A stretch of DNA of 64,000 bases. Source: Lacticaseibacillus parakribbianus. Lineage in GTDB: Bacteria > Bacillota > Bacilli > Lactobacillales > Lactobacillaceae. Location of the stretch: positions 62,001 to 126,000 of the forward strand of contig NZ_JANQBA010000007.1 of the NCBI RefSeq assembly GCF_025490915.1, in the 5' to 3' direction. The notes under the pieces are model-generated. The model was not told the origin of the DNA and did not search any database. It saw nothing but the letters and a program-made list of their open reading frames with translations. Both the position numbers and the translations under genes were made by a program. This document shows positions 3,881 to 62,073 of this stretch, piece after piece. How positions within the stretch are numbered: position 1 is the stretch's first letter; every line of letters begins with the position of its first letter.

Positions 3881-4846
3881 CTAATCCTCCCCGGGATAGC
3901 GCAGCCCCCACTGAGCGCGAGCGGCGTCCATCACCGCCATGGTGTCTGCCGTCCAGGCCGCGGTGGGGTTGGTGCCTGACGCGACGGCTTGCGCCAGCGC
4001 CTGCGCCTCGTAGCCCATCGCCCGACTGGTGGCCCCAGCGCTGACGGTCACCGGCTCGCCCTCGTTGGGCAGCCAGGTCGCCTGCGCCGCCCGGCCAAAG
4101 TTGATGATTTCAAATGAGCCGTCGGCAAAGGTCAGGTAGGCGCGGTTGGGCAGCCGCGCCGCCAGGCTGGTCACCAACACGGCCTGCTCGCCTTGGGCGT
4201 TGGTTAACACCAACGTGCTGGTGAGATCCACCCCGGTGACGGCCTTGGTGGCCGCAGTCGCGACCAGCTTTGGCCTGGCAGTCATGAAGCGCCGCGTCAG
4301 GCTCAGCGGGTAGATGCCCATGTCCAGCAGGCCGCCGCCGGCTCGCTGCGGGTTGTAGAAGCGGTCCTCAAGATTGACGGGCACCTGCTCGCCTAGGCTG
4401 GCCTGAACCAGCCGCAGGGGCCCCACCGCGTGAGCAGTCACAAAGTCTTCGATGGCCCGGTACAGCGGCATGTGGTAAATCGTCTGCGCCTCCATCAGCA
4501 CCAGCCCCTTCTTAACGGCCAGCGCGGTCAGCGCCGCCAGCTGGCGGCCGTTGAGCGTGATCGGTTTTTCGCACAGCACGTGCTTGCCGGCCTCAAGCGC
4601 CAGCCGGATGTCGGCGGCGTGAAAATCATGGGTGGTCGCGATGTACACCACATCGATGGCCGGATCGGCGCATAGCGTCCGGTAGCTGTCGTACACGTGC
4701 GGCACGGCCAGGTCCTTGGCAAAGGCGACCGCCCGTTCAGGCGCCGACGCGGCACAGCCGTACAGGGTCTGACCGGCGGGAAACTGCGCCACGAACTCAC
4801 GGGCGATCCGCCCCAGGCCGATGATGCCCCAGCGTAAATTTGGCAT
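3881..4846 (-). CDS. Gfo/Idh/MocA-family NAD(P)-dependent oxidoreductase
   Basis: 321 aa. The ATG at 4846 is chosen because AAGGAGGAG lies just upstream; the longer reading frame from 4879 has no ribosome site. The N-terminal Rossmann domain begins RWGIIGLGRIA and the family signature CEKPITLN (catalytic Lys of EKP) lies near residue 95. The C-terminal alpha/beta domain follows. Members oxidise or reduce sugars, inositol or dihydrodiols; which substrate is used here is unknown. It sits between DUF624 and the ROK regulator, so it likely processes a sugar released by the cluster's hydrolases. Confidence 0.85.
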   Translation of the reverse strand: MPNLRWGIIGLGRIAREFVAQFPAGQTLYGCAASAPERAVAFAKDLAVPHVYDSYRTLCADPAIDVVYIATTHDFHAADIRLALEAGKHVLCEKPITLNGRQLAALTALAVKKGLVLMEAQTIYHMPLYRAIEDFVTAHAVGPLRLVQASLGEQVPVNLEDRFYNPQRAGGGLLDMGIYPLSLTRRFMTARPKLVATAATKAVTGVDLTSTLVLTNAQGEQAVLVTSLAARLPNRAYLTFADGSFEIINFGRAAQATWLPNEGEPVTVSAGATSRAMGYEAQALAQAVASGTNPTAAWTADTMAVMDAARAQWGLRYPGED

Positions 4847-5798: not shown

Positions 5799-6704
5799 TC
5801 AACCCTTCACGGAACCCAGCATGATCCCTTTTTCGAAGTACTTGGCCGTGATCGGGTACAGCACCAGGATCGGCAGCGTCGAGATCACGATCGAGGCGTA
5901 CTTGATGGCCTCCTTGGACTGGCTGATCGTGTCCATCGTGTTGGTCGTCAGAAGCTGACTGTTGTTGGCCAGCGTCTGGTTTTGAATCAGGATTTCGCGC
6001 AGGATCAGCTGCAACGGGAACAGGCTGCGGTTGGACAGGTAGATCATCGCATCGAAGTAACTGTTCCAGCGGCCCAGCCCGTAGAACATCGTCATGACGG
6101 CGATGATCGGCGTCGACAGCGGCAGCACGATTTTGATTAAGAGCTGCATGTCCGACGCGCCGTCCAGGTAGGCACTTTCCTCAAGCTCGGTGGGAATGCT
6201 CTGGACGAAGTAGGTCCGCATGATGATCATGTTGTAGACGCTGATCGCGCCCGGAATCACCATCACCCACACGGTATTGACGATGCCCAGCATCTGGTTG
6301 AGCAAGTAGGAGGGAATCAGGCCGCCGGAGAAGAACATGGTGAAGGTGAAGAAGAAGGTCAGTGGCCCCTTCCCCTTCAGCTCGCGCCGCGACAGCGGGT
6401 AGGCGGCCAGCGTGGTCATCACCAGGTTGACCAAGGTCCCCAACACGGTGTAGATCACCGAGTTGCGCATCCCGGTCCAGATGTCCTTGTTGGTGAAAAT
6501 CATCTTGTACCCTTCGAGGTTGAAGCCCTGCGGCACCAGCAGCAGAGGGGTCTTGAAGATCTCGCGGGGGTTACTGAACGACGCCATGACCACGAACCAC
6601 AGCGGATACAGCAGAAGCAGCGTGATGATGGCGACCAGGATCACGTTCACCACATCGAAGGTGCGGTCGGCCTTGGTCTCGGCTTTTACTTTCAGGTTTA
6701 CCAT
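5799..6704 (-). CDS. Carbohydrate ABC transporter permease, LplC type
   Basis: 301 aa with six predicted membrane helices. It contains the binding-protein-dependent permease EAA region (ELEESAYLDGASDMQLL around residues 175-190). It starts at the ATG at 6704, overlapping the end of the lplB-like gene by 7 nt, which indicates translational coupling. It forms the membrane channel with the LplB-type partner. No ATPase gene is in the cluster; such importers normally use a shared MsmX-type ATPase encoded elsewhere. Confidence 0.92.
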   Translation of the reverse strand: MVNLKVKAETKADRTFDVVNVILVAIITLLLLYPLWFVVMASFSNPREIFKTPLLLVPQGFNLEGYKMIFTNKDIWTGMRNSVIYTVLGTLVNLVMTTLAAYPLSRRELKGKGPLTFFFTFTMFFSGGLIPSYLLNQMLGIVNTVWVMVIPGAISVYNMIIMRTYFVQSIPTELEESAYLDGASDMQLLIKIVLPLSTPIIAVMTMFYGLGRWNSYFDAMIYLSNRSLFPLQLILREILIQNQTLANNSQLLTTNTMDTISQSKEAIKYASIVISTLPILVLYPITAKYFEKGIMLGSVKG

Positions 6705-48773: not shown

Positions 48774-48782
48774 TGTTATGCT
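48774..48782 (+). promoter_or_regulatory. Extended -10 promoter of ddl
   Basis: TGTTATGCT, an extended -10 (TGnTATGCT) without a clear -35, about 35 nt before the start codon. Confidence 0.5.
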
Positions 48783-48816
48783 TAAGGTTCTAAAACAATC
48801 GGGAGGCATAATACCT

Positions 48817-49878
48817 ATGAAAATTGCCGTACTAGCCGGTGGGCGAAGCACTGAGCGCAATGTTTCGATCTCAAGCGGCTACCGCATCACCAACGCCTTG
48901 CGGGCGCAGGGACACCAGGCCACCTTCATCGATCTGTTCCTGGGGTTCGACCTACCACAAGGCGCCGCACCGGTCAGCGTTTTTGACGACGCCAACACCA
49001 GTGCCGATCTCAAGATTTCGGACGCCATCCTGACCGACGCGGACATCAACGCGCTGCGCCAAGACGGCACCACGCAGCTGTTCGGCCCCAACGTCTTGGC
49101 CATCTGCCAGGCGGCCGACATCGTCTTTCTCGCGCTGCACGGCGGCGACGGCGAGAACGGGAAGGTCCAGGCCTACCTGGACCTGAACAACATCAAGTAC
49201 ACCGGCAGCGGCTCGACCGCCTCTGGCATCACCATGAACAAGGTGTACAGCAAGGAAATCATGCTGCAGCGCGGCATCAAGACCGCGGCCTACGTCGAGA
49301 TCACCCGCGACGAAGGCGCCACCGGCCACACCCTGCCGTTCGGCTACCCGGTCGTGGTCAAGCCAACCTCCGGCGGCTCCTCCGTCGGGACCCACATTGT
49401 GCATGATGCACAAGAGCTTGTTGACAGTCTCACAGACGTGTTCCGCTTCGACAACTCCGCGATCATCGAGGAATTCATCACCGGCCGCGAGTTCTCGCTG
49501 GGCGTGGTCAACGGCCACGCCTTCCCGGCCATCGAAATCCTGGTTCACGACGGCTGGTACGACTTCGAGCACAAGTTCCAGGCCGGCCACACCGACTTCG
49601 TGACCCCGCCGGACAACCTCGACGAAGGCGTCCACAACGAGATGAAGCGCGTCGCCGTTCAGACGATGAAGGTCCTCGGCCTGCAAAACTACGGCCGCGT
49701 CGATTTTCTGACCAACGACGACGGCGTCTGGGTGATCGAGGCCAACAACCTGCCGGGCATGACCCCGCTGTCCCTGCTCCCGCAGGAGGCCGAGGCCGAA
49801 AACGTGCCGTACGGCGAGCTGGTCGAAAGCATCGTCAAGGGCAAGCTGAAGCTGTACGAGGACGGAATGACCAACTAG
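48817..49878 (+). CDS. ddl: D-alanine-D-alanine/D-lactate ligase (ATP-grasp)
   Basis: 353 aa. The ATG at 48817 follows GGGAGGC. ATP-grasp layout: [18 protein letters not shown] at the N-terminus, [34 protein letters not shown], and GRVDFL then [14 protein letters not shown] at the metal site. Phe254 in FEHKF is at the position of E. coli DdlB Tyr216; Phe there is characteristic of D-Ala-D-Lac ligases and of intrinsic vancomycin resistance in lactobacilli. The N-terminus resembles a second Ddl branch rather than the ~380-aa lactobacillar Ddl, so another copy may exist elsewhere. Makes the peptidoglycan dipeptide or depsipeptide. Confidence 0.9.
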
Positions 49879-49882
49879 CAGA

Positions 49883-49995
49883 GGGTGGCAAAGCGCGGGT
49901 TTAGCGGGACGGCTAGCGTCGCGCTGGCGCTTGAAGCGGGTCATGCTTCGAGCACCAGTGCAAGCTGGACGCTCCCGCGTTGCGCTTTGGAACCC
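49883..49995 (+). ncRNA. Structured repeat unit 1 downstream of ddl
   Basis: Begins 5 nt after the ddl stop. Predicted fold: GGGT/ACCC, then CAAAGCGC (49889-49896) with GCGCTTTG (49982-49989), then GCGGGA (49904-49909) with TCCCGC (49973-49978), a conserved GGCTAGCGT bulge opposite AGCTGGACGC, and a long apical hairpin with loop GGGTCAT. No open frame. Whether it acts as RNA or as a DNA palindrome is unknown. Confidence 0.7.
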
Positions 49996-50002
49996 GTTTA
50001 GA

Positions 50003-50114
50003 GGGTGGCACCGAGCGCTTAGCCAACCGGCTAGCGTAGTGAAGGCACTTGGGGCGGCACCTTGCCCCAAGTGCCTTTACTAGCTGGACGCGTTGGCGAT
50101 GCTCGGTGGAACCC
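50003..50114 (+). ncRNA. Structured repeat unit 2 downstream of ddl
   Basis: Same architecture as unit 1 with different bases in each helix: CACCGAGC (50009-50016) with GCTCGGTG (50101-50108), GCCAAC (50022-50027) with GTTGGC (50092-50097), and a ~17-bp apical stem AGTGAAGGCACTTGGGG / CCCCAAGTGCCTTTACT. The conserved GGCTAGCGT and AGCTGGACGC elements are kept. It is joined to units 1 and 3 by the 7-nt linker GTTTAGA. Confidence 0.7.
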
Positions 50115-50121
50115 GTTTAGA

Positions 50122-50234
50122 GGGTGGCAAAGCGCGGGTTTAGCGGGACGGCTAGCGTCGCGCTGGTGCTTGAAGCGGGTCATGCTTCAAGCACCGGTGC
50201 AAGCTGGACGCGTTGGCGATGATCGGTGGAACCC
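50122..50234 (+). ncRNA. Structured repeat unit 3 downstream of ddl (chimeric arms)
   Basis: The 5' half is that of unit 1 (CAAAGCGC at 50128-50135, GCGGGA at 50143-50148) and the 3' half is that of unit 2 (GTTGGC at 50212-50217, ATCGGTGGAACCC). The two basal helices therefore cannot form within the unit, although the apical hairpin and GGGT/ACCC can. Its 3' arm could instead pair with the 5' arm of unit 2. Confidence 0.65.
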
Positions 50235-50275
50235 GTTTATGGCAGGACGCATACGTAGCCAAATGCTACCGAATA

Positions 50276-50284
50276 TGGTAGTAT
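50276..50284 (+). promoter_or_regulatory. Extended -10 promoter of the candidate antitoxin RNA
   Basis: TGGTAGTAT (TGn plus TAGTAT). It places the RNA start at about 50290, at the first base of the 12-bp direct repeat. Confidence 0.5.
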
Positions 50285-50289
50285 TGCCT

Positions 50290-50380
50290 TGAAGAGAACG
50301 GCACGGTGACAAACCGCATTGGGAGTAGTGCCCCAATGTATGCCGGCGACGAGCGTCCAGAGATGGGACGCTCGTTTTTT
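50290..50380 (+). ncRNA. Candidate antitoxin RNA of a type I (Fst/Lpt-like) system
   Basis: About 90 nt, plus strand, convergent with the toxin mRNA. It begins with TGAAGAGAACGG (50290-50301), which recurs at 50619-50630 over the toxin start, so the RNA is complementary to the toxin message there. A three-way junction follows: CGGCA/TGCCG enclosing hairpins CGGT/ACCG and CATTGGG/CCCAATG. It ends in a strong terminator. Short further matches to the toxin locus are GTATGC (50338 and 50674) and CGAGCGTC (50350 and 50509). This layout mirrors RNA II of the par locus of pAD1. Confidence 0.65.
50351..50380 (+). terminator. Terminator of the candidate antitoxin RNA
   Basis: GAGCGTCC / GGACGCTC, 7-nt loop, then TTTTTT. 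Confidence 0.9.
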
Positions 50381-50392
50381 CTTCGGCGACGT

Positions 50393-50434
50393 AAAAAAAA
50401 CACCGCCCACAAGTAGTGCGACCCGTGAGCGGTG
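50393..50434 (-). terminator. Terminator of the toxin mRNA
   Basis: Minus strand CACCGC...GCGGTG (50434-50429 with 50406-50401) with inner CAC/GTG pairs, followed by eight T. Confidence 0.8.
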
Positions 50435-60684: not shown

Positions 60685-62073
60685 TTACTGCCCCGGCGTG
60701 TAGGCGATCGAGCTGAACTTGTTGTACGATTTCACGAACAGCAGCTTGACCGTGCCTCGAGCCCCGGAACGGTTCTTTTCGATGATGACCTCGACCTCGC
60801 CGACGTTTTGGTCGTCGTCATCGTGATTGTTCTCTTCTTCACCATCGCCGTCCGGATCGCGGTAATAGTCGTCGCGGTACAGGAAGGCGACGATGTCGGC
60901 GTCTTGTTCGATCGACCCGGATTCGCGGATGTCCGACAGCACCGGCCGCTTGTCCTGGCGCTGCTCGACGCCACGCGACAGCTGCGACAAGGCGATGACC
61001 GGGCAGTGCAGCTCCTTGGCGAGTTTCTTGAGCTGGCGGGAAATCGCGCTGACTTCCTGCTGGCGGCTCTCCTGCCCGGAGCCTTCGATCAGCTGCAGGT
61101 AATCGATCACGACCAGGCCCAGCGGGGTCTCGGTGTGTTCGTGCTCCTTTTGCAGCTTGAGGCACTGCGAGCGGATCTGCGCCATGCGAACGCCGGGGGT
61201 GTCGTCGATGTAGATGCTGGCCTGGCTGAGGCTGCCCATCGCGATGATCAGGTGCTGCCACTCCTCCTCGTTGAGCTGGCCGGTTCGCAGGTGCTGCGCG
61301 TCGATGCTGCCTTCCGCACAGAGCATGCGGTTGACCAGCGACTCGGCGCCCATTTCCAGGGAAAACATCGCGACGGTCTTGCCGGTTTTGGTCCCGACGT
61401 TTTGCGCAATGTTGAGCACGAACGCGGTTTTCCCGACGGCCGGCCGGGCGGCCAAAATGATCAGCTCGTCGTCGTGCAGCCCGGTGGTCATGCGGTCCAG
61501 CTCCTTGAAGCCGGTCGGCAGCCCCGTGATCTCCTGATCGTTTTGGTAGAGCTTGTCGATCTCGGCCATCGTGCTGTTCAGCACGTCCTTAATCGGCTTG
61601 AAGCCCGAGCGGGAACCACCGTCGCTGACGGCCATCACCGCGCTTTCGGCGTTTTCCACCACCGTCGGCACGTCGTCTTGCTCGTCGTAGGCGGTCTGAA
61701 TGATCTGCTCCGAGGTCTCGATCAGCCGCCGCAGCTGGGCCTTATCCGCCACGATTTTGGCGTAGTAGGCGACGTTGGCGGCGGTCGGCACCGCGTCGGC
61801 CAGCTCGATCATGTAGCCGTTGCCGCCGACGTCGGCCAGCTGGTTGTTGGCCGTCAGGTAGTCCTCGACCGTCAGCACATCGATGGCGTCGCCGCGGTCC
61901 GACAGCTCGGTCAGCGCGTGGAACACCAGCTGGTTGCCGCGCTTGTAAAAATCGGCCTCGGTCACGAATTCCATCGCGCTGATCAGCGCGTCGGGCGACA
62001 TCAAAACACTGCCCAGCACCGCCTTTTCCGCGTCCAGGTTCGCCGGTGGCATGCGCCTGATCTGATTATCCAT
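60685..62073 (-). CDS. dnaB: Replicative DNA helicase
   Basis: 462 aa. The ATG at 62073 follows AGGAGGT; the longer frame from 62112 has no site. N-terminal helical domain begins RRMPPANLDAEKAVLGSVL. RecA-type domain: Walker A ARPAVGKTAF, Walker B GLVVIDYLQLI, and LSQLSRGVEQR then LSDIRESGSIEQDADIV. An acidic Asp/Glu/Asn insertion near residues 408-430 precedes the C-terminus. Unwinds DNA at the fork as a hexamer. Its place after rplI and before purA is the standard Firmicutes order near oriC. Confidence 0.98.
   Translation of the reverse strand: MDNQIRRMPPANLDAEKAVLGSVLMSPDALISAMEFVTEADFYKRGNQLVFHALTELSDRGDAIDVLTVEDYLTANNQLADVGGNGYMIELADAVPTAANVAYYAKIVADKAQLRRLIETSEQIIQTAYDEQDDVPTVVENAESAVMAVSDGGSRSGFKPIKDVLNSTMAEIDKLYQNDQEITGLPTGFKELDRMTTGLHDDELIILAARPAVGKTAFVLNIAQNVGTKTGKTVAMFSLEMGAESLVNRMLCAEGSIDAQHLRTGQLNEEEWQHLIIAMGSLSQASIYIDDTPGVRMAQIRSQCLKLQKEHEHTETPLGLVVIDYLQLIEGSGQESRQQEVSAISRQLKKLAKELHCPVIALSQLSRGVEQRQDKRPVLSDIRESGSIEQDADIVAFLYRDDYYRDPDGDGEEENNHDDDDQNVGEVEVIIEKNRSGARGTVKLLFVKSYNKFSSIAYTPGQ

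Follow-up and report, generated by a model that had tools for sequence, protein, structure and literature searches.

The three tandem hairpins behind the ddl gene of Lacticaseibacillus parakribbianus belong to a dispersed, high-copy repeat whose hairpin shape is preserved although the sequence varies. This suggests an undescribed family of small, structured and probably mobile elements, and not a single new RNA gene. We consider it rather probable (about 0.6) that the array arose from one insertion of a chromosomal, non-autonomous, MITE- or REP-like hairpin element of about 118 nt, which multiplies in tandem and is found in Lactobacillaceae and other Bacilli. The array was found within a stretch of 64,000 nucleotides (positions 62,001 to 126,000 of contig NZ_JANQBA010000007.1), here called the window; coordinates without a locus name refer to it.

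Structure of the array behind ddl

The gene directly 5' of the array (48778..49878, + strand, an ORF of 366 amino acids with a TAG stop codon at 49876-49878) is presumably ddl, encoding D-alanine--D-alanine ligase; ddl is the name used in the original prediction. A protein search placed its nearest relatives in Lacticaseibacillus, the closest being that of L. kribbianus with 95% identity. The array starts 3 nt past the stop codon and is followed downstream by a terminator-like hairpin with a T tail (50348..50376, + strand), so that ddl ends before the array and the putative terminator comes after it. A consensus scan found 4 terminator-like sites in the stretch, with 1.2 expected.

The array had been described as three tandem units of about 113 nt. 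Three structured units are indeed present on the + strand, but by the covariance model R1 (see below) they measure about 118 nt and repeat with a period of 119-120. Unit 1 (49882..49999) is a complete hairpin of the end class AG..GTTT and scores 116.4 bits with R1; it folds with z-scores of -6.45 as RNA and -4.74 as single-stranded DNA. Unit 2 (50002..50118; 106.1 bits) is also complete, has helix sequences unlike those of unit 1 and folds with z-scores of -10.41 and -9.86, respectively. The RNA z-scores refer to 200 dinucleotide shuffles of the + strand, none of which folded as well as unit 1 or unit 2. The two units share one hairpin frame with compensatory changes in the helix arms, as the original prediction had proposed. 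It was also right about unit 3 (50121..50238; 83.4 bits, RNA z-score -4.41), a chimera that combines the 5' arm of unit 1 with the 3' arm of unit 2, the latter with one change. Its fold leaves the base open, and helix 2 pairs at 2 of 5 positions.

The region between the array and the terminator (50262-50385) itself folds with a z-score of -6.70, gave no Rfam match and is near-identical in L. kribbianus (locus L040, about 4205-4330). It may be a small RNA or a 3' region with structure of its own.

A family of hairpin repeats in one genome

We rejected a single-locus RNA, as a blast search with the array returned 61 matching pieces in its own genome. An iterated profile gave 127 units in 48 arrays at the first loci examined. 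R1, which has 118 positions and 40 pairs and was built from 99 distinct units of this genome, found at least 150 full units. The array is thus not peculiar to the ddl locus, but one of 57 in the examined stretches of this genome. Within the 99 units 92.2% of the cells pair, compared with 77.4% in shuffled and 33-47% in slid alignments, both sides change in 28 of the 40 pairs, and the covariation score is 0.428 (0.168 shuffled), with the caution that the structure came from the fold of unit 1 and was adjusted on the same alignment, so that these pairing statistics lean towards it. The covariation noticed at ddl is therefore real, but extends genome-wide instead of being confined to one locus.

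For the detailed analysis we used 57 arrays with 137 units from this genome and 57 arrays with 112 units from L. kribbianus, all from examined stretches. Alignment A2 retained 150 of 154 matches, and 37 of 286 rows were dropped as overlaps, mostly reverse-strand readings of the palindrome. Genes next to the arrays were called with our own codon-usage caller trained on the window, not taken from the annotation. The counts of tail classes, replication strands, left-end categories (n=115) and the single G.U pair rest on another choice of overlaps, called here the second set, which contains at least one wrong-strand unit.

The arrays hold 1-6 units, which stand head to tail. What is conserved in the units is unpaired or sits at helix ends: the sequence TTTAG opposite CGTT, and single-base bulges near TAGC and TAGC/GTAGCTA. 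Paired G.U is fixed at certain places, and the helix sequences themselves vary. The ends fall into two classes, AG..GTTT and CC..GACGA, which hardly mix. In the second set, units preceded by AG have the tail GTTT in 108 cases, GACG in 1 and neither in 10, and units preceded by CC have GACG in 101 cases, GTTT in 1 and neither in 5. The dinucleotide 5' of the first unit is AG in 61, CC in 50 and another in 3 of the 114 arrays. Broken helices are infrequent (18 of 488 helix instances), and four of them are chimeras like unit 3. These chimeras, 4 among 249 units, look like recombination products; three are the last unit of their array and one is the last but one.

A second dispersed repeat of about 230 bp often abuts the arrays (locus L016, 130-360; locus L164, 6861-7130) and has more copies in the examined stretches of this genome and of L. 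kribbianus. In L164, a stretch between two arrays reads N just after position 6523.

Position and polarity of the arrays

In this genome 18 arrays read with both neighbouring genes, 16 read against both, 10 lie between divergent and 9 between convergent genes, and 4 have one unknown neighbour; the corresponding numbers for L. kribbianus are 21, 12, 4, 17 and 3. The two ends of the arrays behave differently. In 38 of 68 cases (18 of 29 in this genome, 20 of 39 in L. kribbianus) a co-oriented gene has its stop codon no more than 8 nt from the left end, while the right end is never that close to the stop codon of a convergent gene (0 of 55; 0 of 25 and 0 of 30, respectively). Of the 115 left ends of the second set, 12 lie at the Shine-Dalgarno sequence of an opposite gene, 20 at a T-run and 45 fit no category.

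The left end of the arrays is sharp and the right end is ragged, many arrays having a truncated final unit. Compared with the first unit, the final one pairs less in 26 arrays of this genome, more in 10 and equally in 5; the corresponding numbers in L. kribbianus are 17, 7 and 5. Bases -3 to -5 of the left flank recur before the second unit in 42 of 84 cases of the CC class (28.3 expected, p 0.0001) and in 39 of 90 cases of the AG class (30.2 expected, p 0.02), in short windows that we chose ourselves. In another Bacilli genome, G697, such recurrence has p 0.006 on 14 of 22 copies picked by eye, with p 1.0 and 0.26 for positions -1 and -2 alone. Such recurrence is compatible with an insertion that duplicates a short stretch, and equally with tandem duplications beginning a few bases upstream.

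The position behind stop codons also suits a different reading, in which the hairpins are RNA elements of untranslated regions that serve the host and are retained at every site for their effect in stabilising messengers or tuning translation. Ribosomes are reported to stall at REPs that lie within 15 nt of a stop codon (PMC12306157). We compared this reading with the strand on which the element folds. Since A.C on either strand corresponds to G.T on its complement, a structure acting as double-stranded DNA or as the opposite strand would show no lean towards G.U. On the + strand of the element, however, G.U outnumbers A.C by 492 to 114 in this genome and by 336 to 66 in L. kribbianus; in the second set a single pair, the G.U beside the TTTAG loop, contributes 118 and 100 of the G.U counts. 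The lean is the same whether both neighbours read with the element (145:37 in this genome, 108:23 in L. kribbianus) or against it (140:36 and 72:7). As G.U prevails on the element's own strand regardless of gene direction, one strand folds. The lean is inherited from common ancestors and therefore marks the strand that is important in the family, not at each site. For the 28 of 114 arrays with both neighbours against the element, the messenger of these genes would carry the complementary strand, yet the lean is unchanged, which argues against a host-serving RNA.

Distribution among relatives

R1 matched 26 of 30 Lacticaseibacillus genomes (own genome included) and, under strict filters, 16 of 121 genomes of the family. 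We then used a broader model, R2, from alignment A4 (51 rows, of which 3 read the reverse strand and 7 come from this genome), which was fitted to R1. R2 matched 158 of 301 genomes of the family in 24 of 40 genera (own included), with a best E value above 1e-7 in 6 of the 158. It also matched 15 of 398 genomes of the class (own included), where 7 of the 14 others exceeded 50 bits and the remainder were weak, and 3 of 398 genomes of the phylum, all of them Bacilli and again including our own. Distant matches below about 45 bits are weak, because the wrong strand of the palindrome reaches up to 42.6 bits with R2.

Both sides have changed in 36 of the 40 pairs of the cross-genus alignment, 90.9% of its cells pair, and it reaches a covariation score of 0.730 (0.196 shuffled). 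A search with a covariance model, as the original prediction had suggested, thus finds widespread matches with pairing conserved across genera. In two further genomes (G612 and G710) a unit starts directly after TAA, which we read by eye as a stop codon, and ends in CCCGTTT as in this genome. G697 contains eleven full-length copies that are 88-100% identical to the query copy (itself counted) and have therefore been amplified recently. Four copies of G697 (loci L207, L208, L210 and L212) occupy an identical position within a different hairpin repeat of greater length, and hence the composite has itself multiplied.

The original prediction had named no known RNA family, and we likewise rejected membership in an Rfam family: Rfam 15 gave no match in the window at the gathering score, and a permissive search of 621 bases (49800-50420) gave four matches with E values of 1.7 to 7.8. 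Six Rfam matches in 20 loci of distant relatives do not overlap the element. Another Bacilli genome has a Bacillaceae-1 RNA (RF01690; locus L199, 1828-1894) at a distance of some 1.8 kb from one copy. The T-box leader (RF00230), whose antiterminator motif resembles AGGGTGG.ACCG, matched neither in the window nor in the permissive search of 49800-50420. At the sensitivity of blastn we rejected carriage by phages or plasmids, in which the element was not found; one exact Lacticaseibacillus-type pattern likewise had 0 matches in viral contigs. We found no description of the hairpin family in the open-licence literature, though one may exist elsewhere.

Turnover between species

L. kribbianus often has arrays at the same places as this genome, with a different number and sequence of units (14 sequences, ten loci). 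The array beside ddl has three units here and one unit with a stub in L. kribbianus, and elsewhere one unit in this genome corresponds to three. At three compared places without an array in L. kribbianus the flank differs too and leaves no clean empty site. The ddl locus of genome G011, which stands here for L. kribbianus, is 90% identical to that of this genome over about 4 kb. An array 3' of ddl in the same orientation, 0-5 nt from the stop codon, is present at 7 of 23 Lacticaseibacillus loci and is patchy on the Ddl tree. Copy number therefore varies between near relatives, as the original prediction had asked to be checked, and it does so even between the sister loci L047 and L045. L047 has two units and a stub (4081-4420), while L045, with 95.1% identity over the preceding 1000 bases, has only two unit ends joined together (4081-4150); its hairpins were lost through a deletion at their base.

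We also scanned for scars of collapsed hairpins as a common feature and rejected the idea, the matches being close to or below the expected counts. The 418 kb of this genome gave 5 matches (4.8 expected), two at array edges and two at ordinary unit starts, and the 400 kb of L. kribbianus gave 2 (5.4 expected). Since the scan was no better than expectation, collapse is supported only by the pair L045/L047 and the two edge cases.

The persistence of array positions between species could reflect a host function, and the recurrent array behind ddl is in keeping with hairpins kept at each site. The patchy occurrence on the Ddl tree, the collapse in L045 beside L047, and the fast turnover of copy number and sequence speak against it. 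Together with the strand lean, we regard a host-serving RNA element as unlikely.

Could the apparent covariation arise in the absence of selection? Template switching in replication is known to correct imperfect palindromes towards perfect symmetry where long quasi-palindromes stand in tandem. The element offers just this setting, and both collapse and chimeras show that recombination is active, so that corrected palindromes might mimic covariation. However, the unpaired motifs (TTTAG opposite CGTT, and the bulged G and C) would be lost under such correction, and it would give no preference to G.U above A.C on a single strand, yet both features are kept across genera. We hence consider this explanation very unlikely.

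Proposed mechanism and the question of the mover

We favour the insertion and tandem multiplication of a hairpin element and propose the following course. Recognition would act on the element's own + strand, folded as single-stranded DNA or as RNA. New units would enter at the left junction, beside a stop codon, the T-run of a terminator or a Shine-Dalgarno sequence, copying a few bases of the flank, and an enzyme would presumably mobilise them. Older units at the right would decay, give rise to chimeras by recombination, or collapse. If an array comes to lie in a 3' untranslated region, as at ddl, the hairpins would probably also act on the messenger like the REPs of E. coli, protecting its 3' end or slowing ribosomes at the stop codon; such action would be a side effect.

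Among the points that count against mobility, tandem duplication would also copy flank bases, and the arrays lack the replication-strand bias that many single-strand transposons show. Indeed, in strongly skewed stretches of the second set 31 are on the leading and 28 on the lagging strand, so we rejected a preference for the lagging strand.

The search for a mobilising enzyme was made for the Y1 transposase family and found no candidate in this genome or L. kribbianus. A REP-associated Y1 transposase (RAYT) might move the elements if they were of the REP/BIME kind, whose members likewise form intergenic clusters of hairpins near stop codons with complementary mutations (PMC2817692, PMC3733652). 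A Y1 transposase is encoded in 13 of the 30 genomes of the genus, including the element-rich G013, G024, G025 and G027. Nevertheless, Y1 (PF01797) is absent from this genome, L. kribbianus and G010, which have at least 120 units each, whereas G021 has one Y1 and no R1 match; the units are moreover 118 nt long instead of 20-40 and stand head to tail. A genome can thus be rich in elements without Y1, which may nevertheless have acted earlier, and we rejected it as the present mover. An origin by RAYT is highly improbable.

The competition of unit 3 for the arms of its neighbours, as suggested by the original prediction, is physically possible, as the fold of the whole array (-224.7 kcal/mol, compared with a sum of -215.4 kcal/mol for separate folds of the three units with slightly different ends) encloses unit 2 between the paired 3' half of unit 1 and 5' half of unit 3, and A-B-A order is over-represented in this genome (24 of 39 triples). 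A regulatory switch of this kind can nevertheless practically be dismissed, because chimeras are too rare for a conserved arm-swapping design, L. kribbianus has the A-B-A order no more often than by chance (9 of 26 triples) and the ddl array of that species consists of one unit and a stub.

A bolder version of the element reading is possible, if doubtful: a mobile element class found throughout the Bacilli that moves as one folded strand selected by hairpin shape and not by sequence, enters gene ends (stop codons, terminators, Shine-Dalgarno sequences) in one set orientation, has two interchangeable end classes and builds polar tandem arrays with an enzyme other than Y1.

Apart from the mechanism, food and gut bacteria would have over a hundred strong hairpins standing behind housekeeping genes. 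Such a load matters for the stability of messengers, for the assembly of genomes and for the typing of strains, and high-copy structured repeats conserved this deeply seem to be uncatalogued for lactobacilli in Rfam and the open-licence literature. With its strict end classes and its fixed left junction, the family allows the question of the mover to be tested directly.

Comparison with known systems

REPs are 20-40 bp long and carry GTAG or CGTC tags, the GTAG type being associated with a Y1 transposase (PMC3733652, PMC2817692). Like the REP and BIME sequences of Proteobacteria, our elements are high-copy, intergenic, clustered hairpins, often close behind stop codons, with complementary changes and variation between strains. 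Unlike them, they have 118 nt with 40 pairs, a head-to-tail arrangement and conserved internal loops, in a genome with no Y1 gene. In place of an unpaired GTAG or CGTC tag at one end we find AG or CC at the left and the tails GTTT or GACGA. The tail GACGA of the CC class contains CGTC on the complementary strand only, which is a resemblance to the REP tag and no more.

The nearest described repeats in Bacilli are, by their description, bcr1-bcr18 of the Bacillus cereus group (PMC3446304, PMC2267715). These are intergenic structured repeats, some MITE-like and some predicted to act as RNA, about half of which are transcribed in messengers (PMC3446304). Tandem arrays and the stop-codon rule, which distinguish our family, are absent from the portion of the bcr description to which we refer (PMC3446304).

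The elements are small, non-coding, palindromic and dispersed in many copies, as MITEs are. A short duplication of the flank is suggested in the manner of a target site, by the recurrence of flank bases (p 0.0001, 0.02 and 0.006), with no clean empty site to set beside it. They differ from MITEs in their strand-specific fold and their tandem growth at one junction, and the Y1 search yielded no parent transposase. The attC sites of integrons fold as single strands, lie directly behind stop codons and keep their structure while the sequence varies. Our arrays resemble attC sites in these respects but have no gene cassettes between their units.
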